Position numbers and translations under genes: made by a program. A stretch of DNA of 64,000 bases from Ascidia mentula (lineage: Eukaryota > Chordata > Ascidiacea > Phlebobranchia > Ascidiidae): NCBI GenBank assembly GCA_947561715.1, contig OX387198.1, positions 17,546,001-17,610,000 of the forward strand. Direction: 5' to 3'. Within the stretch, counting starts at the first letter, position 1, and every line of letters begins with the position of its first letter. Under the pieces are notes generated by a model. The model was not told the DNA's origin, ran no database searches, and saw only the letters and a list, made by a program, of their open reading frames with translations. Shown here in pieces: positions 13,121 to 62,300 of this stretch.

Positions 13121-13959
13121 TTATCGATAGAGATAGTCAGCTTTTATATTTGCTTCTATCTCTGTTTCCCATTTGTCGCCATTTTCCAGCAATTTTTCCT
13201 TGTTATACAGCAATTCCTCATGTGTTTCAGTTGAATATTCAAAGTTTGGGCCTTCAACAATTGCATCAACAGGACAAGCTTCTTGGCAGAATCCACAATA
13301 GATGCACTTGGTCATATCAATGTCATATCTGTATCAATTGTATTTGACAGTTTAATTTGACTGTCGAATACATTAACAGCAATAAATACAGTCACAATAC
13401 AAATTAAACCATTATTTTTTTCCAGCAAAGGTGGAATATCTCACTGGAACATTTGCGTTGCATAATAACAATAAACCTTTATTTTGTAAAAGTGCCAAGA
13501 AACTTTTAACTAAAACTAATGTAAAAATTAATAGTTTTAAACAAGACATTAGAAAATAGTTTCTCACCTTGTTGTTCTTCTGCTTCCATCATCCCTTTCT
13601 TCTGCTTCGATGGTGATGGCTTGAGCAGGGCAAACTGCTTCACACAGTTTACAAGCAATGCACCTTTCTTCACCAGATGGATATCTCCTAAGAGCATGTT
13701 CACCACGGAATCTTGGGCTCAATGGACCTTTCTCAAAGGGGTAGTTAATGGTTGCAGGTTCTGAAAAGGATTTGGACAAAACAACGCCAAATCCTTTCAA
13801 CAGCTCAGATGCAAACATTGCATTCGAGTTGGTGTCAACAATGTTTCTTAAGGTCGGATTGTCAAACTTTTCATTTACAAGCTTGTAGGATAGCCGTGGT
13901 GATGAATAACTAACCCCTCTTGCCCAACTCCGAGCAAAACCAAGAACTTTTAATACCAT
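13121..13959 (-). CDS. NDUFS8: NADH dehydrogenase (ubiquinone) Fe-S protein 8, TYKY subunit of complex I
   Basis: Two exons (13959-13568 and 13328-13121) give about 199 residues, close to the 210 of human NDUFS8. The product is the matrix-arm ferredoxin-like subunit that carries iron-sulfur clusters N6a and N6b and passes electrons towards ubiquinone. Two motifs, [12 protein letters not shown] and [12 protein letters not shown], supply the eight cysteines for two 4Fe-4S clusters. [20 protein letters not shown] is the family signature before them. The basic, hydroxylated N terminus ([15 protein letters not shown]) fits a mitochondrial presequence. The splice junction (AG|GTGAG ... CAG|A) restores R-YDIDMTKC in frame. 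The start faces NSRP1. Confidence 0.97.
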
Positions 13960-14546
13960 TTTATTGCAATACTAACACAAAATTTTCAACAAATCATGAT
14001 ATGCTCTTTTCGCTGCAACAATAATTTTTTTTAAAAACCAAACAGAATGAATTTTTAAATTATTACTAGGCCAACCAAAAAAGGGATCCAAAATTAGAAC
14101 TATAAGTGATTTTTAAACATCATACAAACTGATAAGATTGGCACACTGTATAGTGACATAGTGTGGCCTAATTAAACTATAAACCGAGTGCAACAGTTCA
14201 CAACATTCATTACTCACAGAAACATTCCATCATTGACGTAAGTTTTGTTTATAAGGCTTAATTAATATCTGTTTGGCACGTTAAAACATTCGTTGACAAT
14301 CGTTGCAAAAAAGCCAAAATCATTTACGAAGATATATCACTCATACCGCAACCGGGATCGTTCTGTTCTGTTTTGTTCTGTTCAGCAGACAAATGTCAAA
14401 ACTGGCCATGGCTGACCGACTTCGTCATGCTCGGTCGGTTCTTATGAAAATAGGGGACGTGCGAAAAGAATGCATTTGTTGATTTCATTTTTTTATTGGA
14501 TAACTGTCGTTATGGACAAGCATTGATGTAAACTTAAATTTGCAGC
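13960..14546. promoter_or_regulatory. Shared promoter region of NDUFS8 and NSRP1
   Basis: The two start codons lie only 587 bp apart, pointing away from each other, so this short interval must serve both genes. A GTTCTGTTCTGTTTTGTTCTG pentamer-like repeat lies near 14364-14384. No TATA element can be assigned with confidence. Two housekeeping genes sharing a spacer fits a bidirectional promoter, which is an inference. Confidence 0.5.
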
Positions 14547-25559: not shown

Positions 25560-26316
25560 ATTTGTCCTCACAAATATCTAAACCCGCATCTTGCAGCACG
25601 CGGGCTAGGGAACTGATACTTTGTTGCCACGGCTTATAATCGTGTAAATACGATGTTGAAGAAAATGCTTTTCTTTTGAAAATAAAGGTAGGCCCAGATG
25701 TAAGCATAGCATAGCCTGGGCTACTTATCGATTTTTGGCGGTTTTGCAATATGGACTTGTAAATCATGTCGAATACCACCATAGTATACTCTTGCTAGAT
25801 TTAAGCGAGTCAACTTTGGTCACTTACTTTCATATTCTTGGTCATCACACCAACAGAAGAGACAGGTTGCGGAATCTCTGATACAGTTTCTGTAATTTGG
25901 AGAGTAGCACAAGTCGTAGGGTACGGTAAGACATGAGGGAGTTTGCTGAGGAAATTCGATCCCGTTCTGAGCCACTACTATACTATGATACAACCCACAT
26001 TTAATAAAACAATAGAAATCATAAATATCGTTTGTGTTGTCATGTTGTCAGAAGCCACACGACACGCACGATGCAAAAATTGTTTAGCTTTTTGCTGACA
26101 AATATGTCGGCGCGACCAGGATGCAAAAACTTGATGTAAGTGCGTGATCCTGTTACCATTTTAAATATTTCACACTAGTCCCAGTAACGACCTAAAATTT
26201 TGTGCGGTTGTTACAATGGTGACATTTACATTAAACTTGCTGCAACCTTTTTTATTTTATATAATAACAAGATAAACCATGCAGGGTTATTAAAAAATTG
26301 TAATCATAGAGAAAAT

Positions 26317-27147
26317 ATGAAGATTGGGATTGTTGGCTTTGGTCATTTGGGAAAATGTTTGTACAACTACGTTACCCAAGAAGGTTGTAAATGTGGTTTA
26401 GAAATTGATTTTGTTTGGAACAGAACTCCTGAAAAACTGAAAGATGTGGACACTGAAAAGATTTTGTATAACTTGGAAGATGTATCAAATCACTCACCAG
26501 ACCTTATTGTTGAGGTTTCGCATCCTAACATAACAAGAAACTTTGGGGTTTTATTTTTGTCAATTTCTGACTACTTTATTGGTTCACCAACTGCATTGGC
26601 AGATAAAAATGTTGAAAATCAATTGCAAGAAGCAGCTAAATTGTACAAGCGAGGTGTCTATATACCAAGTGGTGCATTTTGGGGAGCACAAGATATACAA
26701 AAAATGGCTACATTGGGATCTTTGTCTTCATTAAAAGTAACCATGAAAAAGCATCCTTCAGCTTTTCGTGTTGCAGAGCCTTTGGCTTCAAAAAATGCTT
26801 CTGTGAAAGATAATGCAGTTGTTTTGTTTGAAGGTCCAGTTCGAAATCTCTGTTCCCTTGCTCCAAATAATGTAAACACCATGGCAGCTGCCTCTATCGC
26901 TGCACACAACCTTGGATTTGACAAAGTTGTAGGTTGTCTTATTTCAGACCCAACATTGCAAGGTTGGCATATTGTTGAAGTGGATGTTGAAGGACAAAGA
27001 GCAAAGAATGGTGAATGTTTTTGTGTTAAAACACAGCGTAAAAATCCATCCAGTCCAGGTGCAGTGACTGGAAAGGCAACTTTTAATTCATTTTGTGCAA
27101 GTCTTCTACATGCAAGCGGACAAGGTGTTGGTTTCCATATGTGCTAA
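26317..27147 (+). CDS. ASPDH: Aspartate dehydrogenase domain-containing protein, single exon
   Basis: One uninterrupted frame of 276 residues (human ASPDH 283). The NAD-binding Rossmann start is MKIGIVGFGHLGKCL (GxGxxG). Family blocks follow in order: DFVWNRTPEKL, PDLIVEVSHPNI, SPTALADK, SGAFWGAQDI, SLKVTMKKHPSAFR, VLFEGPVRNLC, NNVNTMAAASIAAHNLGFD and PGAVTGKATFNSFCASLL. Archaeal and bacterial relatives oxidise or form L-aspartate with NAD(P). The animal enzyme's physiological substrate is less certain. The frame stays open upstream to an ATG at 26200, but similarity begins at 26317, so I take that start. Being intronless is unusual beside its intron-dense neighbours; retroposition or intron loss are both possible, and the frame looks intact. 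Confidence 0.94.
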   Translation: MKIGIVGFGHLGKCLYNYVTQEGCKCGLEIDFVWNRTPEKLKDVDTEKILYNLEDVSNHSPDLIVEVSHPNITRNFGVLFLSISDYFIGSPTALADKNVENQLQEAAKLYKRGVYIPSGAFWGAQDIQKMATLGSLSSLKVTMKKHPSAFRVAEPLASKNASVKDNAVVLFEGPVRNLCSLAPNNVNTMAAASIAAHNLGFDKVVGCLISDPTLQGWHIVEVDVEGQRAKNGECFCVKTQRKNPSSPGAVTGKATFNSFCASLLHASGQGVGFHMC

Positions 27148-38229: not shown

Positions 38230-41076
38230 TTACTGTGTTGTGAAAATTTCGGCACTTGTAGAAACCGCGGGCCAGTTTGATTGGTAATTTGGATTATTTT
38301 GATACTGCTGCTCGTGTTGCAACTGCAGGGTCTGGGGGTACATGAAGCTGTCATGGCGTGGATATAAACCGCCCTCATCCGGTTTCGCAAAATTAGGGGT
38401 TTGGTGATCGTGGGCGCCCATATCACTGTTATATTGTCTGTATGGATGATGGCGGTGATAAAGATTGGACTGTGAAACCGGGAGGGAAACTCTTCGACCA
38501 ACCGCAGAGTGATTGAAGGCTGGACTAGTTTGATCAAACGACAGGTTTGAATCGGACGAACAACGTGTGACGACCACGCTATCAACGCTCCCTGGAATCA
38601 TGTTGTCGTGCCGAGTAGTAACTTTTGAGCACGCTTCGTACCGCCCATGACCTTGAGCAAACGAATGACCTTCAAATCCAGCTGGGAAAGTTGCGTCGTT
38701 CTGACCTCCAGGCGTCGACTGAGAGACCAGGCTTTGATTGACGTCGTGGTTGTTGAAACCTGGGTAGTGGTGAGGAGTAACGGAGTGGGGAGATGGAGAT
38801 AACGAGGCGATCGTTTCGTGGTAATTTGCATCAAGGTTACGCTGTAGAAAAAACTGGCGCTGAATCGGTGACACCTGCTCTTTCTTAACCTGCTTGTGTT
38901 GCAAATTGTCGTTGTGATGCACTGAAAAATCGCTGACAGCTTCCGGGAGACTCGTGGGTCGCGGCTTCATTGTGACGTCATAACAGAAGCGACTGTTGTG
39001 GTTAAAATGGTTTGGATGGTTGATTGCCGTGGTGGAAGGTGGAGTGCTGGATGAAAGAGACGGATTCGTAGAAATATTCTCTTGTTGATCGATCCAGTTG
39101 TTAGGAAGGTAGGAAGGGTTGGATGAAGTGTGTGGGGAAAATACTGCGTTCTGAGAAGAATAATCTATTGGACTCGTACGCGGATCTGAATCAACCATGT
39201 TGTTGTCGGCTTTACTGTTCATGTTGTAAGGATATGACATGCTTTCATCTGGACGATGAAGGTTGGTTGCCATTGCATCGGGACTGTGTAGTTGAGAGTT
39301 TGGGGAGATGTAGGTTTGATATTCTGCTTCATCAAATGCTGATGACGACACAGAGGACATCACGTGATCATCGTTCGTATTTCCCATGGAGGCGTACGAT
39401 ATCGTAACGTTGTTTACCAAACCTGAAGCTTCGGTGTGGTTTTGAGTGACGTCGTTCCGTTCAAGCAAGTTTACCATAACGTCACCACGTTCGCAAGAAT
39501 ATGTTTGTTTGTTGGATAAATCGTCGGCCGAATTTATCATCGACCTTTGAGCTGGTGAAGAAGGAATAATTGCATCCGGTGAACTCTGGTACCTCTGGAT
39601 GTGTTCCTGCATCTGCTCAAAACCAATGTTTATAGAATTCGAATTCTGTATGTTCACTTGGGGCGAACGTTTTGGCGAATGTTGCATCTGCGGCTTTGCT
39701 ATGGGATTTGCTATTAGGGTTTGATGCATCGATAGGCAATCGCTTGGAGCCGCTCCGCTTTCTTCTGATTTCTTAGCTTTAGTTTGCTGTTTGGAACAAG
39801 TCGGAGTTTGTTCCGAGCCATTGCTTTTGCTGCTTTTTCTTCTACGTGGCTGATACTTGTAATCTGGGTGATCCTTTTTGTGCTTGACTCTCAGGCGTTC
39901 CGCTTCATCGATGAAAGGTTTCTTTTCGGCCTCGCTTAACAATCTGTGAGAGGAACAAGTAATATTATAAAAACTGTTTCACAAAAAAATTGAAGAGGTG
40001 TCTAGTTGAACTTTAAGTCAACCAGTCTCTAAAGACTTTCGTAACAAAGTTGAAATATGTATAACGTTTATTTCTAGACAGCAACCATGCAGTTACAATT
40101 AACAAAAAAACTCCTTAAAACAAGCCTGAACACATACCTCCAAAGTTTGCCCAATGTCTTGCTTAGCTCGGCATTGTGCAGGTGTGGATACTGATCAGCC
40201 AGCTTTCTCCGTGCTGCCTGCAGAGGAATGAATTTAAATACATTATTTTAAAATACACCTAATGGTATAGAAACTTTGACAACAAATTTACATTTACTTG
40301 TGCTAACGCATGTTTGTAAAAAATCTATTTACCTGAGCCCAAACCATGAAGGCATTCATTGGTCTTTTCACGTGTGGTTTTGATTTCTGCGATCCGTTCA
40401 TGCGAACTGGCATCGGTACAAGCGTCCAGTCGTACCCCTTTAGGACTTGGCTTACAGCGTCTTTAATGTCTTTCGACATATCATCAACTTCTTTCTCTGA
40501 ATTTGAATCTTTATCGGACGCCCAGTCCTCGTTGTGCCCTGAACCACACGAACTTGTGGAACACAAAGACTCACGATTTGACAAATCTTGTGTCTTCTCA
40601 TCGGTTCCCTGGTTGTGTCCAAGAAGACTTGCAGCAGCTTTTGCCACAGCCGCAGCTGATTTTATCGTACACAGATTATCGGAACTAAATGGCAAAAGGG
40701 AATCATCGGAGATTGTCCTTGACGTTTCATGTTTACCCGCGCCTTCAAACCCTTCACCAACTTCGTCGCCGCTTAATTTCGAAGCTTCTTGTGTGAAATG
40801 ATGGTCGCTACTTGAAGCTGACAAATACCCGTCATTTTCCACAATGTTTTCGTCTTTTTCGTCTTCAAAATGTTTGTTCTCTTCTGCCGACTTTCGATTT
40901 TGATTCAGATATCTTTTTTCGTTTGGCAATGTCGTTGAAAACGGATGCCACGAACTCGTACATAAGGCTGAGTTGCCTTGGGTAGCTAATATGCCGGTTT
41001 GGTTCAATCCGCTTATTAAAGTCATTTCCTTGTTCATTGCAAGTCCCTTAACCGATCCCAAGCAAAGTGACATCAC
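38230..41076 (-). CDS. SoxE: SoxE-family HMG-box transcription factor (Sox8/9/10 type)
   Basis: Three exons (41076-40333, 40217-40138, 39943-38230) encode about 845 residues. The SoxE-specific dimerisation region is present at about 203-233 ([20 protein letters not shown]), running directly into the HMG box (about 234-311: [70 protein letters not shown]). The protein should bind AACAAT-type sites as a dimer or monomer and act in the nucleus; vertebrate SoxE genes drive neural crest, glia, cartilage and gonad fates. Both flanks outside the box are long, Ser/Asn/His-rich and apparently disordered. The total is well above the 450-510 residues of vertebrate SoxE. The C-terminal half (Gln/Asn/His-rich) is the probable activation domain. 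An initial double Met leaves the exact start open. Two introns interrupt the HMG box. Confidence 0.96.
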
Positions 41077-44000
41077 ACGTTTCAGTCGATAAAATATGTG
41101 CTAACCTCAGTCGCGTAAAACCACTTTAATTACAAAATCTTCTGAACAAAATATAATCATTATTTAAAACTGTATACCAGGCTATAGTAAAAGTAATCAT
41201 GCTGAGTGTTCGCTTACCGCCAACCAGTTTCATTTGACGCACTGTTTGACTACGAGTCCCGTATTTAACACAGGTTTACCGCAGAACCGTCGCACATACA
41301 CACGCCGCATGTGTTAGGGTGTGTGCCTTTCCATTCAGCGCTTGTGGAGGGAAAAGAGAGTCCTGGTTTATCGCTTCAGCGCACCGAAGCGATTAAGAGG
41401 AAAACACGAAAAAAGTTGCCGGCTTAGAAACTTTTAGGCCTCAAACACCGAATGTGAACAATAACGTCATAGCCTAAAGCCGGATAGATCGCTGTGTTTG
41501 TTGCACTTACTGCCAATATTAAACTTTGCTACTAAAATGACAAGAAACGTGACAAATTAACACCTACAGGTTGTATTGTACAATAAACTGACATCCGTAC
41601 AAACAACTCATACGTTTAAACGTTGGACAAAGTTTGAATTATTGAAGTTTTGCATGTTTGCTTGTAGAAACGCGTCTTAACAAAATCATGATGTTTGTGT
41701 ACATAATTGGATCGTGAGGCTTAGTTTCCGTAGCCCCGGGCGACGAACTAGTCAAACTGTTTTAGGCTCTCCATCCTCGCTTTAGGGAGAATCAACGCAT
41801 GATAAGATGTCGCGGAAAAACGTGGAAGGAAATGGACGCAGGATATTGCGCTGGTAGTGGCAGGAAATCAAAAAAATTCTGATCCCCGAAAATGGTCACA
41901 TGTTTTATATTTTATCGTTTGAAGACAAATTGTCACTTTCGAAATACCGTAGTTGAAATGTGAGAACCAGGCCCAAGACAATTACTTCAATTGCTGCTTC
42001 GCCTCGTTATATAGTATCGCGACATTACGATGTACTGGTGAATAAATTCGTTTCCAGTTTTGAGAAAATGGAGTTAAACATTAACCTGATCGATGCGATC
42101 GTATTTTACTTGTTGACATGCGACCAAACCTTTAGCGCAAGAAACTTAACGAGGTGCTGATTTTTACCAACATAACATAAATCGCATTTCGATTGTTTCC
42201 ACTGCTGTTTTCGTGTTTAATCAAATTTATTTTAGTTATTGTGTGTTGGTTTTAATTTTTCACCTCCAACCAACAAAACGTTCTGCCTAGAATGGCTTCT
42301 TATCTTTTCCGCCATCATTGCCGATCCGCCATATCAAAATCTATCTGTATCACGTCACTCGCCCTTTTTAGACGATGATCAATGTGTAGAGGGTGCAGGG
42401 ACATACAAGTTTTAAATCACCAGAGAAGCGATGGATTATGGTCAGCGGTAACCCTATGAAACCTGCGGCCATCCCGTTTACTGTTAAAAATAGATTCAAC
42501 AGTAAACTTACATGTTTAGTATAATGGTCGAAAAATCGACTCGCGTCTAAAGTTCATTTTCTCCTCTTGTTAAAAGTAACCTTTGTTTTCGACGAAATTA
42601 CGCTGTCCTTTAAAATACTTATAAAACTTCTATGGCAAAACTTAATTTCAAATAACTATAATGTTGTTGGCATGTTGTAGTAAATTTACAACAGGAAAAA
42701 GTTAAGCCCCGCGTTGTCCCTTTAACCAGGGCTGGCAAAATCATGCAAAATAAGCAAGTGACATCAATGAAAGGGGGTTCACATCTTGTTAAATTTGCTG
42801 TTACATTTTTAGAGAAAGCGATTTATGTTTGTATGCGGTTCAACAAAATCGATTGGGAAATCACGGAGCCATGTAGTGTTAATGTTATAGTTTTGTTTAA
42901 TTTCGATTGATAAAACATTATATGCTATATTTTTTTTTTGTACCGCACATATATTGGGCACCAAAGTTTAAGGTGCATAAAGGCCTCTAAAGGACTTAAT
43001 CCGACCCTGGTTCCAACCCTGTATCATCAATTCTTACGACCGAAATCTCAATAAAATGCTTCATGTATGGTTTGTAATATAGTCTTTCGAAAATGTTCAA
43101 TTTGGGTATCACAAGTTCTGCTGTATGGCGAGATAAGTGTTGGTGTTATTAATGAACCATTGCTCTGCCGGGACATGATATTGTATATTTCCTGTTGCTG
43201 TCTCATTCCACCTCCAGAAGAGTTTTTTGCGCAGTTTAACACAACAATCGGTGGCTTGGGTTATGATTTGGCCAAGCATGATTCTTGGGCAAAGTTTAAA
43301 GTTTAGGCTAAGATTTCAATTCTGTGTTATTTGTGATAAGATATAACAAAATGTTACAAAACCTTGGTTAAGCAGTGAAATCGACAAATTTGCAGGAATA
43401 GTCAACGAAACGCGCAAAGAGTGAAATCTACGTTTGTGCGGATGAAGATGTTGAAGCCGCATTGCCATTCAAGCATGATCTGCGCGGTTGCTTTGACGTC
43501 AGCAGACACCCCCAACCATGACCCCGAACTTTCAAGGTACGACCAAGAAGCAAACTTATGTCGGTCTCTTCGCTCATGCTTCTTATTTCGGGACACACAT
43601 CAAGCTGGTGTTTACAAAATTGAGTTATTTTTACTCGGCTTATTGGCTCAGTAAGACTTCGAGTTTGGGAAGTATAATGACTGAATGACGACACATGGCA
43701 AGATATTCGTTTCCGTATTTTTACGTTTATACCCTTGTGTGTTTAATCTTTCATAAATCTTTTTGGGGTATATATTTACATAAAGCCATTCACAACAAAT
43801 ACTTGATGACGTTTGCGATTGTGCTTGTGTTGTTGTTTTTTGCAGTAACCCTCATGTATAGTTCGCGGTACTTTATTATAAGAGAATAATATTTGTAAAC
43901 GTGAATTTGGTATAATTAAACGATACTTCCTCTTTTGCTATATATTCATGACACAAGCTATAAAATTAATTGCATACTTTCTTCGTTTGTAATAACTATT

Positions 44001-44997: not shown

Positions 44998-47900
44998 TTA
45001 ATCCAGAAGATCGATGAAGTTGGTACTGAACGACTGAGTCACGTTGGAGGCAGATTTCTGGGTCGGGGCAGCCCAAGGGTCCGTTGAATTATTGGAAGAA
45101 ACTTGAATTTGTGGTGTTGGGTTCGTGGTGTTTGAAGGTATTAAAGGAGGTGGCATTGAAGTTTGTGATTCAAATATACGAAAAGGATCGTTTATGGTTA
45201 AAGAAGTGGATGGGGGAATCTCCGGTGGTGGTGGAGGCTTCGGTTTGTTTGTCCGGTTTCCCGCCGAAGGAGGAAGTTTAGGAGGAAGAGGAGCTGGTCG
45301 TTTGGGTAACGTCTTCCTTGGTTTAATCTTGGGTGGCTGGGATTACACAAATATGCAGGGTAAGAACAGAACACTTTTAGTCACAAAAATAAACAAATGT
45401 TTTCTCAAAGTTGTTTGTAAATGTTCGGCTGAATTTGTTTTTGTTTTTTTTCTGAAAGCAAACTTTATCCAGTAAAGTATTTTTTTACTCAGTTTTACCT
45501 TCAGACTTTAAACCAACTTTAAATTTTATTTGAATTACAAGAGTCACGGTGTAAGGAATTACATAAATTCACCTCTTCAAACACACTGAAGTCCAGTTGT
45601 GAAAGGTTTAAAACTTGATGTTGGCCATTGGTCAAACTTTCTTCGACATTCGGTGACGTCAAATCACTTGCGGGCGGGGGCGGAAGTTGTGGGGGGAGCT
45701 TGGGTGGGTTCGGCTTTTGTGGCTTGGAGATAGCGGGGGGTCGGGGAGGAGGTTTACGCGAGGAGGAATTATTTTTTTCAACTTCCACAGGAGAATCACT
45801 TGCCACAGATTGATTCATCATACAAGGAGTGGAGCTAGGTCGAGGAATATGAACGGCGCTTAACGATTTGATATTGTCGCTTGAAAAGTGACTTCTGGAC
45901 ATTCCACGCATTTCATCAGCGATCCCAGATACCTCTCGGTCAGTTTCTAAGTTTGGCGATTCCAGACTGGCTGGTTTCAACCGGATGCGATCTGTGTTGA
46001 CCGAAGCATGGGTTAGTACACAACATCAAGTTTTCGCCCATTAATCGCGACAATGTAAACGATCGGCCGTCGAACGCGGTCGCGAGAGAACAAAGAGCTC
46101 TGTTATGTCACAATAGCCATGTTGTCAAGGGAAACTACTGACATAAACCAAGAAAAATATATAAGAAAAAGCGAGGGTCTTGGGTGTATCACATTTGCAG
46201 AAATTCGGAAAGAAATGTATGTGGGGCAAACGAAGTCTCACATTTAAAAATTTTGGTTTAAAAATTTTCTGCTCATAAAAACACGATGGCATTTCTATTT
46301 ATAGACTTTATTAATACGAGTTACCAATAGTAAACTGTTGCTGTCCACAAACAAACACGCACTGCCACTTTTAACGACAACAGGCCAATTAGGTCAAAAC
46401 ACGCAAATATCAAATCGTATTGCGTCTGCTGCTTTAAACGCTTGACAGTAAAGTTTTATCGATGTGTGCATAAAATACCACAAGCCAGGTTTCTACCTAA
46501 CGTCATGTGATGGTGTGATGCGTTATTACGGTAAGAGGTTAATCATAAATCGCGCGATAAGCGCTTACCCTCTGCGCTGCAAATCCTTATTGTGTATCCC
46601 TGGTACGATGTCCTGTCGTAACCCAAAGCCTCGTTTGCTTTGGCTGAATTCGCGTAGACAACAACCAGGCAATGACGTAGCGATCTGCAAATATGCAACT
46701 TCATTAAATTTGGTAATTCTCCTTCGTTTTAATTATTTCTGGTGTTATATTGGTCAAGTTTGTACAACGGCAAATGATTTACTACACAGTGATGTTTCGA
46801 CTTCAATCCACTGTGTAATGTGGTTGACTCGTTTGTAAAAAATCGCGCTTTATCAAAATAGTTAAAAAATATGTATGGCGACACACGATTCTGATTTATA
46901 GAAACAGTAAATGAACAAAACGTAACACCAAAATATTCAAATTGGCATTTGACAAAGAATTTTGAGCTTACCTACAGCCAGTGAATTCCTCCAAACCATG
47001 GGCGTATATGAATTCAGTACAAACTTGTTTGTCAAAACTTGGGTCTTCGTTAAAAATAAACACAGGAATGTAAATCGGTTCAACTTCACGTCTGATTTCT
47101 TCCATTATTTTATTTCGTTTTTCATCATCAACGGAAACTACTTTAATGTCGATATCCGCAACAACAGGTCTATTAATTGCATGTGTATTATTAGAGTTGA
47201 AACAAAAGGGAAATAATGTTAATTCGATGGTATTAAGTTAAGACTTGAATGACAACAAATAACGATAATTCATAACAATCATTAGCTTTTAGATAGAATT
47301 CAACAATTTTACTCCTGTGAAATATGCTTGATGCAAACTCCCTTGTGACATCTAGCGGCGACATAAAAAAATATGAAAAAGAAAAGCCATGCCTATGATC
47401 GGACGTTTTAAGTTCGGTGCGTCCGTATCTACGCAGTGTGCCTTTGTGAAAGTTTGGTTCCTCAATCTGAAGACAAATTAGCACCGATCACAAAGTTAGA
47501 TACCAAGTGTAATTTAAGTAGATTTAAAAGAAATAATAAAAATGTTATGTGTGAAGAGTTGGAATCGGCAACAAAGACTTTTTTCTTACACCACATAAAA
47601 TTTTGGACCACTCTTGTCGTTTCCACAATATCCTATCAGTCCAGGCAGGAGTCCGACATTTTTCGCTCGTGTCATAATCATCGGAAAAAGGATCATACTT
47701 GTAAGTTGGCGCAAAGTTCATGTCGCCCTCATTGAAGCCCTGACATATATTATTTGAAGTTGAACGCTAAAATATCTAATTTTTTAAAAAATAAAATTTA
47801 CTTTAAATATGTTTCCCATTTTCTTATGAACAAGAAGTTGATCAAATTCTTTCAACTTTTCCCAATTTTCTTCTTTTACAAGTTGTTTTACTTCATCTCC

Positions 47901-50900
47901 GGACAAGTCGATTCGATAATTAAAATCACCACACCAAAACACATAATCGTGACAAAACAGTTTTCGACCCTTGAAAACACAAGAATGAAAAACATACACA
48001 TCACAAAATTACCCCAACTCGTAACAACATGACACATTAGTTGATACATATGTTCGTTGTTTTCGATTTCTTTGCTTTCAACATTGACTCAACTTTATGC
48101 CGTGCAACTATTGCGTTGCGTGAACGACAGTTGAACCGTGTAAATGATAACGCCGTATTTACATATGCAAAACTTTATAGTGACACAAAATTACTACTGA
48201 AGTTTACCTTGGAAAACGTGAGACCAGCAGAAATTTCATTATAGTCGTTGTTTCTTTCAATGACTTGTGTTTGACCGGCAGCAAAATGTGAACATACAAA
48301 ACACACAGAAGTGTTGTACAGCAACATGGAAACGGCAACAGCGCCTTTGTTTCCAGCTGCTCCACCCATTCCTGTTTTTATCATTGAGACTGAAATATTT
48401 CTAAATAAAAGTAAGAAGACAATGCTAAACACAATAAAACATCAAGAAATAATTCCTGGAATCCGCCTGTGCAGGTCGGTGTTGACCGACAGATTTGTCT
48501 TCGTACGTAACAATATATTCCGGGAGCTCAAAAAAGCGTAACTGGCGACTAGCGTCAGTGTCTGTGGACTTTTTTGTTGAAACAGAAATGTAAATTTAAC
48601 CTAATGGAATCGTCAGTTGCTGTCCAATAGGATCATCTATTTGTTACTCTTTTTTGAGTTCCCGGAAAACAATAAAATAAAAGATCTGCCAAACTGTTGA
48701 TTAAACTGACTGAAGCATTTCGTCAATAACATCCGTCTTCACACGGTTTTACTTTTGCATTAAAGTGCTTACGTGATATGTTCCACTAAACACTTGCGGA
48801 CAATAAGAAAAAGACAAACTCCAACCAGTTGATCTGAAATAATTGGAACATAATCATCTTCATCCATTATTGTTTTCAGCAATTCATTTTCCCACAACTG
48901 CTTGTTTGTCAAACTGTTCGAACAAAAACAAATATTGTAAAACAAAACAACCAATAACATTCCTACTTTTCAAACTCGCATTACTTGCGAGTAATAAAAA
49001 TGTTGATGCACATATTTAAAAAAATACCTTTGCCATATCATGTATTGTCACGACAAGGTGTAGAAAAAGGTATTACGGGTATTACAAACGAATCTGGTAA
49101 ATTGCATGTCCTATTTACCAAGCATTTTTATGCGATTAACCAGAATCACTGCAAGGTTATTACGGTGATGCTATTTTACATTTCCTTCAGCTGAAATAAT
49201 TATCTTAGACAACGCAGACGTTTTCTCTCTTTAGTAGTCAGGTTTGTCTTGCAAGCAGATATCATGGCTTAATGGCCAGCGACGAATTCTTCAGGCGAGT
49301 TTGAAAATAAGAAGTAACAGAAACATCTCTTATTACGCAATCTATGCTTGTAAGAGAAACATGGGAGTGTCACTTTAACAATGATATCAATATTTCCGTC
49401 AATTAAATAAATTGTTGATATTCTGTGCAATTAAACAAAATTGGTCTATGGTTACATAAAAAAAGAACAATTTTTAATTCCATTTTCCAAACACACTAAA
49501 ATAGTGTAGTATTATAAAGCAGTAACTAGTTTTTGGATGTAGAATGTAGTAATGGGAAGAAAAAAACTTGTTTCAATTCAAGATTTTTGCACTATAAGGA
49601 CCTTGCATTTAAAATGTTTCCAGCATTGAGTTCAACCATTTCTTCAAAACCAATTGCAAATATGTCAGCAGGATAACTTCCAATTGAATTCATCTAGAAA
49701 AACACACAAAACTGCTTATAAAGGGTCATATGTATGGCAGATGGCAAATAATTGAAGCTAACCTTTGTGACAAAATTAGATGGAAAAACTCCTTCAGATT
49801 TTTCACCCTCTCTGTTCACACAACCTGTCATCCATTCTCCATCCACTTTGGAAACATCAACAACCTACATCAATGTTAACAATGAAATTTACCAGATTTA
49901 TAATTGAATGGCATTTTTTAATTTTTTGCGTAAACTGCAAACTAAAAGATAGGACAAAATGTGTTTAATGCATTGTGTGTTTGCTTTGTGTTTGGTCCAT
50001 GGTTCTGATAAGTTGTTTTACTTTATTGTTGAGATTTACTTGTTGTTTAGGATACAATTTAAATAATTATAAATATTGATTCCTGGTGATATCGAGTAAT
50101 GAATCCCACCTGGCTAATGACCGACTTGTAAACATTTACAATGACATAGACTAAAGATGTCCATTGAGTGAATTGTTAGTTCAATATGAGAAACTTTACA
50201 ACAAAACTTAAGTCTAAGCATTATTTGTGGTGCCATGCAAAGTTCCGATTTTAACAAAGTTTGAAAAGTGAAGAGAATCATTTACCTCGTTTGTCCACAA
50301 TTGCAAATCACCGTCTTGTTGAGCAGGAAAGTCATGAACGACCATATATGGATTGTTAAGCTTCTCAACATATGCAACAGGAAATATTCCTTCAGCATCT
50401 GCCAAACTTCCATGCAACCATTCTCCACCATCAAGCTCTCTATCAACTAAGAAATTCACCACAATAGAAAAAAAAACATTTCTTCACTAACAGCATGCAT
50501 TGCAGACAATAACAATGAATGCAAAATACAAAAAATATGTATTATTAGAACAGGAGTATGTCAAGAGAGGTTCATCGTTCATCACTACAATTTTACTTGC
50601 TTGTTTAACAGATTTGGTGACAATGTTTGCACTTTTGCACAAAACATTGGTTTCAACATTTACCTGTAATTTACACTTAAATGCTGCTTATATATAATTA
50701 ACTAAATATGGTTACAGGATCAAAGCCACCCAACTGGCAAGTTAGACAGGCTTAAGAATATTTAATTTTGTTTTATACCTAAAATAATATCTCCAACCAC
50801 AAAATTTAAGTCTCCTTCTTCAGTTGAATTGTATTCATATACAGCATGGTAATAACATTTTGTTTCGTTTTGTCCATTGTTATAAATCAACCAGTCTTTT

Positions 50901-53900
50901 AATGTCTGTAAATAGAAACAAAAGTAATGATTATAATAACTAAAAATGGTAAATAAAACCTTAAAAATGTTTAGAGGTCAAAGTTGTGTGCAATATCAAG
51001 GAAATTAAACAAAGCAGCCCATATAACACAAAATTGCAATGTTAACGTTGTTGACTGAAATATTTGGTGAGGTGAATTTTACTTGAGATATATGGGCTAA
51101 ACTGGTATGTTGAATGTAATTAAATTTGAGCACTAACAGAATTACCTTATCCTTGTATGCAATTGATCTAAATAATTTTCCACCATTCACATTCCAGGAA
51201 CCAACACAAACTCGAACTGAATATTCCTCAGTGAATTCAAAATGGTGTTTATACGATTCAACGAGAACTTGTGATGAATCTAGAGAAAAAAATGATAACA
51301 AATGTAACAAGCAAAGTACAAACTCACTGGCGAAGAGTACGGGGGTGCAGGGGTAGCACGCACCCCCAACCTTTTCTAAATTTAATCACACAATCGTATC
51401 ATGTCCTTTTGGCTTTCGCCAGTTTAAACCGCAGCAAAGAAGAAGGCGCATTTCTTTTCTGATTACACTCATAAAAGTACTCAAAACACAGTTTCGTTTG
51501 CCTCGTATTCGCGAAAAACAATTACGCAACACAAGCGAAATTATGTTGGTGATGAATGTGAAGAAGGAAGATTTTATCGCTTGTGTAAAGAAAATCTACT
51601 GCCGAGTTTGTCGCAAAAACCACGTTTCTTCCATTTTCTGGGGCCAAAAAAAGCCCAAAAATTGCTAACATGGACGACGCTATAACTTGTATATTATGGC
51701 GTGCAAACGACCTTCTGACGATAGTATTTTGTATTCGCCATACCCCTGTTGATGTGCAAAACTCTACGCCCATGTACATACTATTATTTTGTTAGTTTGG
51801 TGTTTAATTTAATTCTATATAAAATTTGAATTCTATACTAATTACAGTAAAACTGATGATGTCCAATCAGGTCACTGCAGACATGGCGGAGATCAGAATT
51901 AGCCACATTGGACTGAAGAAGTTTGTCCATAGCTTCCTGCTTGCCCTGATCCATTAAGTTGTTTTGAATCGCTCGCGATAGAGAACGAGCTCCATCCTTA
52001 ATTTTTCCAACCTATTAATAAAAATAGCTTTTTACAGCATACACTTAATAACAAAAACATTTGGGATATTGTTTAAAATTTATACCAAAAAAACATGGCA
52101 TATTCACTGTTAAAAATTATAACTTGGTTTCATATTTTTCAAACATAAAATTTCATGAATTGTGTAAGCTGCATACAGATGGTCACTGTTTCGACCTACA
52201 AGGTCTTTTATCAGTGCAGCTGGTGTGACTATCAGACGACTTTGCTGACCAAACGGATGACGGTGATTGTATAGTGGAAGCATTGCTTGGCCATTTGTTT
52301 GGTCAAGTGGCCATCTGAATGCAGCTTACACAATTCATATTATTAGCTCCACTTTGCTTATTTAATTGTGATGTTAGTTGTCAACAATGTGGCTTAACTA
52401 AAATATTGCAATTGTGTAACAATATATAATTAATTTAGTGTTTTTCCCACTATTTTAGTTTTAGGAATGCAACATATGATGAACCTTATCTTTGCCTTCC
52501 AGTGCTGCTGTTCCTGCATAAAGACGACTAATCAAATCACCAGTTTGTTGCCAAGCTGATTTTAAAGCTTCGGTAAATCTTGAAACAAGCTGAGAAGAAG
52601 AGCATCCAAGAACCTCAAGTTGCTTGTTAACCATCTGCAATATTTACGACATATGCCAACATTTAAACCAATAAAGTTCATACAACAAGGAATTATCAAA
52701 AAAACAATAAAATTACAATATTTAAAAAGCAAATAAAAAAAAATTTAGTTTATAACTATTATCTTGTCATTTTATTGTTCCATAGTCCATACGATGTTAC
52801 GTTCAACAAACATTCTATCAAGAACAAACCCAAAATACCTTCAGTCCTACAAATGTCTGAACACTGTTGGTTCTATCCAGGCAGTCCAAACAATTGACAC
52901 GAAGAACTCCAGTTTGTTTTTTAAATTCATTTCCATCATCCACATAAAAACCACTGGACTCCAGAAAAGGCTCCAGCTGATCTACACAAATTTCATAAAA
53001 ATCCTTTGATTTTGTTTTTAAAAGTGTGTGTGTAGTGTGTGTGATGTAAATAAAAAACAAATAATTAACAAATATTACAACTATGATTTGTTAAATACAA
53101 GAAAAAGAATCAACCTAGTAATTTGTTTATATTTGCAATTTTCCCAACTCTACATTCAGCATGATAATCAAAATTCGAAAACTTCATTGTTTTTCCAACC
53201 TCACTTGACTCATGGTGACTCTGTAAAAAGTATAGCAAAGATAATGTAGATTTTTTGTTTTTGTATCTTCATTGCATCACTACACAGGCCTTCATTATTG
53301 GTGGTCCAATCACCAAGGTAATGAAGGATTTTTTGAAAAAACATATTTGTATATAATTTTTTTAGTACAACTGCCACTTAGTAACAGTATGCTTACATTA
53401 TTTTAACCAAAATCAACACAGCATTATCTATTTTTGGAGTTTTGGATGAATATCAAATGTTACCTGGAAAGCCCGACTTAAAAGTGCTTCCCCTTCCTTT
53501 GAACCAAGCAAATTTAGAAGAGTGCATGTTTCATAAAAATCTCTGACATTTTGCAAATGCCTACAACATAATAACTCCACAGTAAAATCAGTTCAGTTCA
53601 TAATTGAGTTTTGAACAAAAAAAATTAAGGATATTTCTTACTTCTCGTAAGCCTTATGAGATATATAGAATGGCATCGGAAGTTTTACTTTATGGGATCC
53701 AACATTTAGACCAGGTTGTTCCCAGTGAAGTGGAACAGATCCCCGTATCATCATGAAACTTGTACATTTGTCGCCAATGCAAACAATCTATATAAATTAA
53801 ATGTAAAGAATTATTACAATAAAAGAAAATGACATAATTAAGTCTATGAAAATAGTATTTCTTTGCAAGTTCAAAAATAACAATCATACAGAGTAGATAT

Positions 53901-58368: not shown

Positions 58369-59317
58369 TCATTGTGGTGACTTCAGATGAGTGTTCTACG
58401 GAAATTGGTTTGGGTATTAAACATGGTGTGGTCTCTGATGTGAGAGGGGTAGAGTCAGATGTATAAAATCGGATGAAGAGGGGTAATCTGTTGTAGTGAA
58501 GGCTTCTTCTTCGGATTCTTGTCTTGTTGGGGGTTCTTCTTTGTTGTCGACTTTGTCTGACTCGGTCAGGTCTTCTGTGGAGGGTTATTTTTAAGGGCTG
58601 ATTGCTTCATCATAAGGCCCTTTTTTGCCGTTGCTAATTTTATATTGGTCTTAGAGTCGCCAACCCCGGGACACTGGCGCATAGCGGCTATATAACGTTT
58701 CTGTGATTGTGGTATAATTATTCATGAGAGAAAAAAAAACTTGACAACCGAAGTTATCGTGATATAATAGTTAAAAAAAAATACAGTTGCAATAAAAAAA
58801 ATACAGCAAATTCAATATATTAATTAAAAAAATTAGTTTCGTTAATACATAATTGTTTTTAAAAAAGAGGTACCCAATCCGTTATACCGGAAATAAGGCG
58901 GAAAGTTCCGGTAAAAGCTCAACATGATAGAATTCAGTAAACTTTATTGTGATACCAAATTTTGTTGAATTCGTAAAGTTTGCAATTATTTTGTAAACAA
59001 AAATATTTCATATTTCGTGTTGTCTTTTATCACAAAAATAAAAATATTTCGTGTTGTCTTTTATCACAAAATAAAATTTCCGTCCTTTACGGTATCCTTA
59101 AAAGATTTTTTCTATACTTACCTTTGTTGTCAAATTACCAACTGAACTGTTCTTCCTAGTAATCGTCACCTGAAAGAAAGCTACTTGTTTATATTACTGC
59201 GTATGATCATGATGTTGAAAAGCGTTTTTACTTTTTATCGGCCTTTGTATATTTAGTGTAAAAGTAAACACTAGATATTTATAAACGTTTTAAACTGTCT
59301 TCGCCATTTTTAGAACC

Positions 59318-62300
59318 ATGACCAATAGTAGTGCAACTAAAATTTTACAAAGCGAATTTAAAAAGCTGCAACAACAACCTGTGGAAGGATTTACAATTGG
59401 ACTTGTCGAAGACAGTGATATCTTTCAATGGAAAGTAGCTTTATATGGCCCTCCAGATACACTTTATGCTGGAGGATACTTTAGGGTATGTTTTTTTTTT
59501 ATCTTGTTGAACAGAAATTATTGACAACAAACACAGCTAGTAATTCATAATGTTTGCAATATTCTTTGATCCTTATTTGCAGTGGTGGCATATTAATTTC
59601 GATCAGTTAATCAGTGGTTCGTTATGTGTCTCTGTTATAAACCTCTGTTTGTCGCATTCATTCATAATGTCTGAAGATGAATCTGCCCAATTTCAAACCC
59701 ACTGTCAGGCTTCATGTGCATAACAATTATACCATGGACCTAAGTACAGAGTTTTTAAGGCATCTTGCAAGTCACTAACATCAAAGGGAAGTTAGTTAAA
59801 GTAAAGTCCAAGCACATAAGGGCATAGTGTTAATATTCAGGTAATTTGACAGGGCAACCCCTAATATTTCAAATTATGTTTTGTATCATTCAAACTCAGG
59901 GCAGTCAAAATCAAGTCACTTCCTCATAAGATGGCCAAGTTACCGAAAGTAGCATAAACTGGTGATTTTTTTGTTAACTGGTGCTTAAATGTCAACATTC
60001 GCAGAAATTGCACAGGTTAAATGCATAATGCACCTTTATCTTTCTCTCGACTAGATTCTGTCAATAATGTTTGGTTGGAAATGATTATATTTGCACAAAA
60101 ATTGTTGTGTCGGATTGTAACAACAAGTGAGTTGTAACATTGATATACTGGTGACATGCCAACTCCTTGGATGATACACACACAAAATGTTGACCTAGTT
60201 TTATATAAGTTCGCTTACGTAGTTTGCTAATTTGTTGGCTAACCCACAGTATAACATCCAACTGGCCAGTTACTTTGTCAGTTTCCTTATACACTGATTT
60301 TGTTTGTTTATTGTTAACACATACCTGATAATGTTATAATAACAGATTATGGCTTATATACCCATGCACCTATCCTATGAAAAAAAAAAACTAGGTTTCT
60401 ATAATTTTTCGTTGTGTAATAAAAAAATTATAGTTTCAAAACAGAAAAACATTGAGTCTTGTGTATCTTTTTTCATTGAGCACAATTTCATTCGTTAGAT
60501 TCCCTATTTAAAAATCTGGATATGCCTGTTGACACAAATATGCAAAATCGTAGGCAATGCCACTGTCGGACAAAAAGTGGTACTATGACAGAATAACAGT
60601 GTTGTGTTGCATAATCAGCTAATTTGCTCGGTTTTTCTCGGCGGTCTTTGCCAGCCTTAAAATTCAATTAACCTACTTCCATCTTTTGCTGTGAGATGAC
60701 AAAACGACATTGCTAAATTGATGATATGTCTTTGTCGTGTTTTTAAAAGTTAATGTATCACATTAGCGAACATAAATGCTGTAACAACAAGAACACCCTG
60801 TCCCAGTAACTGTTTTATTATTGCAACTAAATAAATATGTTGAAACTGCTGTCATCTGTCTGTGCAGCTCAAATTAACATCAAAATTCGTTTGTTGCACT
60901 TGTTCACTTGTTGTCCCTGTTTAATGCAAAACTATACTAAGCCAGTTCTACAATGTTTTCCATTCCTACGCATAAGGCTTGCTGCCGGCACTCGCACGAC
61001 CAAAGCGCCTTCTATGACGTCACACAACAATAATTTCGCTTTCACATGATTTCATTCGCAGCAGTAAAAAGGGACTTTGATAAGCTGTATCTCAGAAACC
61101 AGTCGCCATATTAAGCTACTTCTTTTGCCAAAAATGTTTTAAAGTTATGAACGTCTCTTAGTTTAATTATTAACATGTTTTATTTTTCCTTGTCATAAGC
61201 ACTTTAAGTGCAACTTACAATATCCCATGGCAAAACTATGTCTGCCTTGAACAAACATTAATGTTTGATCTTTTTGTGAAAGTTCAGATTCTGTGACCTT
61301 TCGCAAACCTAGATATATACAGTTTTGTTGACAAGCATACCAATAAACCCTATTAATAAAGCAAATATGGAAAAACATTATCTCAGGTAAAACTACATGC
61401 TGTTTTCAAAAAGGTTCAGTTGAGAATTTTCATGTCATAAGCGATGTTTTTAAACAAGTTCTGCTCACAATGTATAAATTCTATGGTAAATATAAACAAC
61501 ACCGAAAAAGTTTGATGCTATTTTGTTCTGCTTATTAAAAATCAAGTCAGTGGTTATTCTTTGAATGCGAACTTGCTTGTTGAATTACCATTATAATTTA
61601 TAAAACTGCTATAAAAAGTTACTTTGGTGGTGATACTATTTTGTTTTACTCAATTATTTGAGTTATTGTTATGCCTTATTCCCAACTATATGTAAAGTTT
61701 ATTACACCACATAACTTTGCATTTCGAAACTTGATTTTATGTGTTTAGGCAATCATGAAATTTCCCAATGACTATCCTTACTCACCTCCAACATTTCGAT
61801 TTCTATCCAAAATGTTTCATTCAAACATCTATGAGGTATGGAAAAATTACCATTTTATTGTGTATCTAAATTTGTCATCAACTTCTATTCAGAATGGTGA
61901 AGTGTGTATATCAATATTGCATTCCCCTATCAATGATCCTCAAAGTGGAGAACTGCCTTCAGAAAGATGGAATCCAACCCAGAGTGTCCGGTATGACCAC
62001 AGCATGATGTATCACACACATGTTGTTTGTGAATGAATTTGTTTTGTGTTTAGAACAATTCTACTTAGTGTGATTTCCCTTCTGAATGAACCGAATACTT
62101 TCTCTCCTGCAAATGTTGATGCTTCAGTTATGTACAGGAGATGGAAAGAATCCAGGGGATTGGACAAAGAGTATGAGAACATCATACGGTGTGTTTTTTT
62201 TTAATTTTTATAAATTTTAAAGCGTTTTGTTTGTGTTTTGGTTACTTTTCCAAAATTAACCAGTTTGTGGTTGGGTTATAATGTAAAAAGCTACAGTTTA

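Follow-up and report, generated by a model that had tools for sequence, protein, structure and literature searches.

How two SH3 domains come to lie inside the catalytic domain of a 5-phosphatase, and what they might do there, is the question raised by a synaptojanin gene of the ascidian Ascidia mentula. The gene is carried on a stretch of 64,000 nucleotides (C2:17546001-17610000, contig OX387198.1; hereafter the window), and the genome searched along with it amounts to 195.8 Mb. Comparison with other tunicates indicates that the SH3-bearing synaptojanin is a trait of the group and no oddity of one genome. Synaptojanin removes phosphates from membrane lipids in endocytosis, and SH3 domains are what its partner proteins ordinarily contribute. 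The inserted pair resembles an SH3 domain of intersectin, comes close to the Sac domain of the same protein in its degree of conservation, and shares its chain with a conserved proline-rich ligand.

As predicted from GT/GC-AG splice sites, the gene is complete on the minus strand (56142-44998): 26 exons encode a protein of 1310 amino acids (aa) without an internal stop. All but one of the 25 introns are GT-AG; the remaining one, between exons 22 and 23, is GC-AG, with its GC donor at 47391-47392. An apparent frameshift at the junction of exons 9 and 10 was dismissed: a start of exon 10 at 53003 broke the frame, whereas with the acceptor at 52981, to which comparison with Phallusia pointed, the frame stays open. 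Pfam recognises Syja_N, Exo_endo_phos2 and two SH3 stretches in the protein. The Sac domain is represented by Syja_N (195 bits) and by the CX5RT motif, presumably the Sac phosphatase motif, at 52863..52895 (minus strand). The 5-phosphatase scores 272 bits (Exo_endo_phos2), matches the solved SYNJ1 5-phosphatase at E 1.1e-125 and contains the 5-phosphatase motifs, those downstream of the insert lying at 47163..48378; apart from the magnesium ligands, we take the catalytic role of these motifs for granted. No second synaptojanin without SH3 domains was seen in the genome, where other 5-phosphatase matches (C52, C73) were weaker: the gene is the only synaptojanin found in A. mentula.

The SH3 domains stand between the helix TLKDWL and the strand DIFAIGFEE of the 5-phosphatase, and five exons, all on the minus strand, span the site. 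Exon 13 (51146..51279) encodes the linker between the Sac and 5-phosphatase domains together with the first 5-phosphatase strand (WNVNGG at 51196-51179). Exon 14 (50779..50905) opens with the helix TLKDWL (50905-50888) and, eleven residues past it, begins SH3-1, of which it holds the first half; exon 15 (50286..50446) completes SH3-1 and opens SH3-2, half of which it holds, and exon 16 (49763..49864) supplies the other half. Exon 17 (49602..49693) contributes the final residue of SH3-2, as bounded here, then a short loop and the strand DIFAIGFEE (49666-49640). An AG acceptor and a GT donor flank each of the five, and their phases chain as 1, 0, 1, 0, 0. Scored alone against Pfam SH3_1, SH3-1 (aa 569-623; 50358..50854, split by the intron 50778-50447) reaches 34.3 bits (E 1.8e-8) and SH3-2 (aa 625-682; 49691..50354, split by the introns 50285-49865 and, before its last residue, 49762-49694) 31.8 bits (E 1e-7), both above the family cut-off of 22.9 bits; three synaptojanins taken as controls (P0009, P0085, P0047) give no SH3 match at E <= 1. 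An earlier note, made from the letters of the window, had proposed a synaptojanin with two SH3 domains inside its 5-phosphatase, matching exon phases and intact motifs. These points are borne out, and all the exon coordinates given there, over the span 51279-49602, agree with ours.

The same arrangement is found elsewhere among tunicates. A protein search with the insert region recovered Phallusia mammillata (76% across the full region), Clavelina lepadiformis, Ciona intestinalis and five further jgi or lgn proteins with that layout; the remaining 112 of 120 matches listed (of 2572 above threshold), vertebrates and amphioxus included, had coverages of 42-45% and no SH3 accession. A second search added Styela clava, with SH3 accessions on 8 of the 120 matches listed (of 2274), and a search with the Styela insert gave 21 matches: four synaptojanins (Styela and three lgn proteins), the others being SH3D19, an intersectin-like protein, SH3RF1 and further SH3 proteins. 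None of these lists is exhaustive: the second lacks Phallusia despite its insert, and the third lacks Phallusia, Clavelina, Ciona and two jgi proteins; absence from a match list therefore shows little. Ten tunicate synaptojanins were aligned (this gene, Phallusia, Clavelina, Ciona, Styela, two jgi and three lgn proteins), and every one has the SH3 pair at the identical site. Those of Ciona, Phallusia, Clavelina and Styela have the architecture and insertion site of the A. mentula protein, from which they differ in sequence divergence only. The vertebrate and amphioxus synaptojanins compared share with them the Sac and 5-phosphatase domains, and those of vertebrates the proline-rich tail as well, but have a short loop where the tunicate protein has two SH3 domains: the insert, in short, is in all ten tunicates and in no listed vertebrate or amphioxus relative. 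One fish protein (P0009) outscored other vertebrates; it repeats a segment around the first strand and, as noted above, gives no SH3 match at E <= 1.

In a tree built without the insert, the tunicates group together at 100/100 and divide into Styela with the lgn proteins on one side and Phallusia, Ciona, Clavelina, the jgi proteins and this gene on the other, each side at 100/100; the jgi sequences form a long branch, and this gene is close to that of Phallusia (78% core identity). The orders represented are the stolidobranchs (Styela), the phlebobranchs (Phallusia and Ciona) and the aplousobranchs (Clavelina), and the simplest reading of these sequences is a single insertion before the split between stolidobranchs and the rest, so that it would be no younger than the ancestor shared by three ascidian orders. 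This dating applies to ascidians and the jgi and lgn sequences, appendicularians (Oikopleura) lying outside the sample. Judged by titles and the beginnings of abstracts, searches of the open-licence literature aimed at the architecture or its regulation yielded no description of SH3 domains in a tunicate synaptojanin, and the earlier note knew of no described 5-phosphatase with this arrangement; the architecture itself is nevertheless not new to the databases, where the proteins of Ciona, Phallusia, Clavelina and Styela were already deposited under plain names such as 'synaptojanin', without remark.

Conservation within the protein is uneven. Averaged over all pairs of the ten tunicate proteins, identity is 47% in SH3-1 and 45% in SH3-2. 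The Sac domain stands at 52% and the two parts of the 5-phosphatase at 73% and 62%, whereas the RRM-like part drops to 26%, the tail to 18% and the loops flanking the SH3 domains to 12-13%. The SH3 domains thus appear conserved as if functional, close to Sac in identity and well clear of their flanking loops. In SH3-1 the Tyr/Phe, Trp, Pro and Tyr positions of what we take to be the ligand pocket (pocket positions and the ALYDY motif being assigned on our own assumption) are kept in all ten sequences. SH3-2 likewise keeps Trp and Pro throughout, while the first Tyr of ALYDY is replaced by His in six of ten, and the last Tyr by Phe in five and by His in two. The six with His at the first position are this gene, Phallusia, Clavelina, Ciona and the two jgi proteins, whereas Styela and the three lgn proteins keep Phe or Tyr; this shared His and their place in the tree would fit the two jgi sequences to a thaliacean, an assignment that is unproven. 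As for the RRM-like part (46569-47169), Styela and the three lgn proteins have a recognisable DUF1866, while this protein, Phallusia, Clavelina, Ciona and the jgi proteins have none; a Pfam scan finds it in Styela but misses it in this protein, in Phallusia and in the one jgi sequence included.

Where the insert sits on the fold can be approached by topology. In the structure of SYNJ1, according to a passage of PMC7781601, magnesium lies near N543 and E591. Their spacing of 48 residues lets us assign them to WNVN (its second Asn) and GFEE (its second Glu), both at a strand end. Because the SH3 pair joins the far end of the intervening helix to the start of the second strand, it should lie at the pole opposite the active site. 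The earlier note had placed it on a catalytic-face loop, a position with which this topology disagrees; its expectation that the product folds as one enzyme accords with the predicted model of the Phallusia counterpart, where the 5-phosphatase fold is kept and the SH3 domains are looped out. Neutral sphingomyelinase 2 (PDB 5uvg), an enzyme of the same fold, likewise has an insertion within its catalytic fold; the title of that entry mentions no SH3.

A further question concerns the source of the two domains. When the whole genome was searched with the insert (E <= 0.001), the sole match outside this gene was the SH3 array of an intersectin at C52 (54% identity, E 4.9e-7). Both profiles rank the SH3-C of this intersectin first (lettered by array position, as we assume): SH3-1 at 56.3 against 42.6 bits, and SH3-2 at 54.6 against 37.0. 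The ranking covers 42 fetched loci, and 30 of the 73 SH3 matches in the genome had loci of their own, so that part of the SH3 repertoire was compared. By pairwise score within a chosen panel, intersectin SH3-C is the best non-synaptojanin match for all four SH3 domains of this gene and Styela, and among PDB chains the best single-domain match of SH3-1 is an SH3 of intersectin 2 (59.8 bits). SH3D19 was discarded as a donor: the SH3D19-like domains of the same genome score below intersectin SH3-C. Derivation of the insert from an intersectin SH3 is thus likely on these comparisons, but unproven. SH3-C, the best match of both domains among those scanned, differs from them in being one of several SH3 domains in a scaffold and in occupying one open frame, while both synaptojanin SH3 domains are split by introns.

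The other half of a possible interaction lies in the tail. With class I and class II SH3-ligand patterns as we assume them to be, the 355-residue tail holds six class I motifs, and the 955 residues before it a single motif of either class. One of these ligands, PKRPAPLPP (aa 1209-1217; 45280..45306, minus strand), represents a motif, KRx[AP]PxxP, that occurs once in the tail of all ten tunicates and of the three vertebrates compared; it is absent from the amphioxus record, which stops before the tail. In pull-downs with glutathione S-transferase (GST) fusions described in a passage of PMC3723668, SH3A, SH3C and SH3E of human ITSN2, like those of ITSN1, bind synaptojanin 1 and dynamin 1. With intersectin-C-like SH3 domains and a conserved tail ligand, the tunicate protein therefore seems to hold both halves of a known interaction on one chain. 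DPF, DPW and further motifs mark the C-terminal part (45001..45189, minus strand), presumably with an endocytic meaning. At the extreme C-terminus (45001-45033, and the corresponding residues of the nine other proteins) FSTNF, FSTDF or FTTDF is found in all ten, preceded in eight by DPW at 15-19 residues; this is possibly an endocytic adaptor motif.

These observations suggest the following account, which as a whole we consider somewhat more probable than its negation. Two SH3 domains, nearest to intersectin SH3-C, would have entered the helix-to-strand loop in a common ancestor of three or more ascidian orders and been kept thereafter. The enzyme would still hydrolyse PI(4,5)P2, while the SH3 pair would dock, at endocytic sites, the proline-rich tails of dynamin and of further synaptojanin molecules. 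The phosphatase could then cluster and place itself without waiting for an SH3 of intersectin or endophilin, and would have its own tail as a competitor for these SH3 sites. Among the functions weighed, docking in trans on the tails of synaptojanin and dynamin appears the most likely, ahead of a clamp on its own tail and of a mere spacer.

Several findings nonetheless weigh against this account. With regard to origin, intersectin does not stand out among PDB chains when these are scored with the SH3-2 profile; intersectin SH3-C does not return the match, ranking SH3-1 of synaptojanin third of 27 and preferring two other SH3 domains; a tree of SH3 domains (57 columns) joins the synaptojanin and intersectin groups at 59/87 only and places one jgi SH3-1 elsewhere; and the tandem SH3 domains of SH3D19 match the Styela insert at 33-35%. 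With regard to function, SH3-2 of this gene is 34% identical to that of Styela (Sac domain, 46%), and its ligand binding may have been changed or lost, or its preference shifted, given that His stands in for the first ALYDY Tyr in this and the five other non-stolidobranch sequences. The model of the Phallusia protein is of low confidence in places (pLDDT <50 at residues 15-26, 37-41 and 178-183, among others) and weak near the end of the active-site strand and in the linkers. An endophilin-type SH3 piece and the intersectin SH3 domains are still in the genome, on which ground we rejected the idea that the insert replaces a lost partner. In worms, according to a passage of PMC4435004, the tail of synaptojanin is dispensable for transmission, and a tethered endophilin SH3 made a synaptojanin lacking the Sac domain more enriched at synapses, yet gave no rescue: an SH3 alone need not suffice.

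The same parts would also serve an intramolecular clamp, in which the SH3 domains bind the tail of their own molecule and hold enzyme or tail closed until endophilin or intersectin competes. The presence of the SH3 pair and an invariant class I ligand on one chain in all ten proteins speaks for it, as does the binding of the synaptojanin tail by human SH3-C-type intersectin domains (in the part of PMC3723668 cited above); topology, however, puts the insert at a distance from the active site, which it could not simply cover, and we regard the clamp as unlikely. Alternatively, the SH3 domains might fold and bind nothing, and serve to space parts of the protein or to contact the Sac domain. A domain inserted in a loop that tolerates it can be neutral, and the altered aromatic pocket of SH3-2 would suit such a role; the intact pocket of SH3-1 in all ten proteins and a level of conservation near that of Sac and far above that of the loops argue the other way, making a purely structural insert improbable. 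That the SH3 exons belong to another transcript, nested or misassigned, and are skipped in synaptojanin mRNA (the case that, by the earlier note, would refute the insertion) deserves hardly any credence: exons 14-16 total 390 bases and their joint skipping would keep the frame, but exon 14 holds both TLKDWL and the start of SH3-1, so that a separate SH3 gene is not credible and skipping would delete a conserved 5-phosphatase helix, and the same join recurs in all ten tunicates, including four sequences whose contigs are short enough to be transcripts.

Other genes share the window. A gene start at 59294-59524 (plus strand), oriented divergently from synaptojanin, looks like that of a ubiquitin-conjugating enzyme, a label we assume. 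Large minus-strand reading frames that start with an HMG-box (38230-41100) are probably a SoxE gene; a 319-aa open frame on the plus strand (26188-27147), apparently a single exon, presumably encodes an aspartate dehydrogenase domain protein; and a minus-strand frame with a ferredoxin-type motif (13564-13971) is taken to be like the NADH dehydrogenase subunit NDUFS8.

A bolder reading, which we put forward tentatively and think rather doubtful, is that early tunicates captured the synaptojanin-binding SH3 of intersectin into the catalytic domain of synaptojanin itself and so made, from an enzyme recruited by partners, a self-assembling, tail-gated PI(4,5)P2 phosphatase, able to recognise its own tail and those of its neighbours, that has lasted across the ascidian radiation. 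In current models SH3 partners bring synaptojanin to endocytic sites. How much this recruitment matters is disputed: according to a passage of PMC4435004, the worm protein functions without its tail. The tunicate protein is a clean case of two domains inserted in a catalytic fold and retained since at least an early ascidian ancestor. With the SH3 pair built into the enzyme in animals that are tractable in the laboratory (Ciona), it would allow a direct test of whether SH3 docking, or control of the tail by SH3 domains, is needed.

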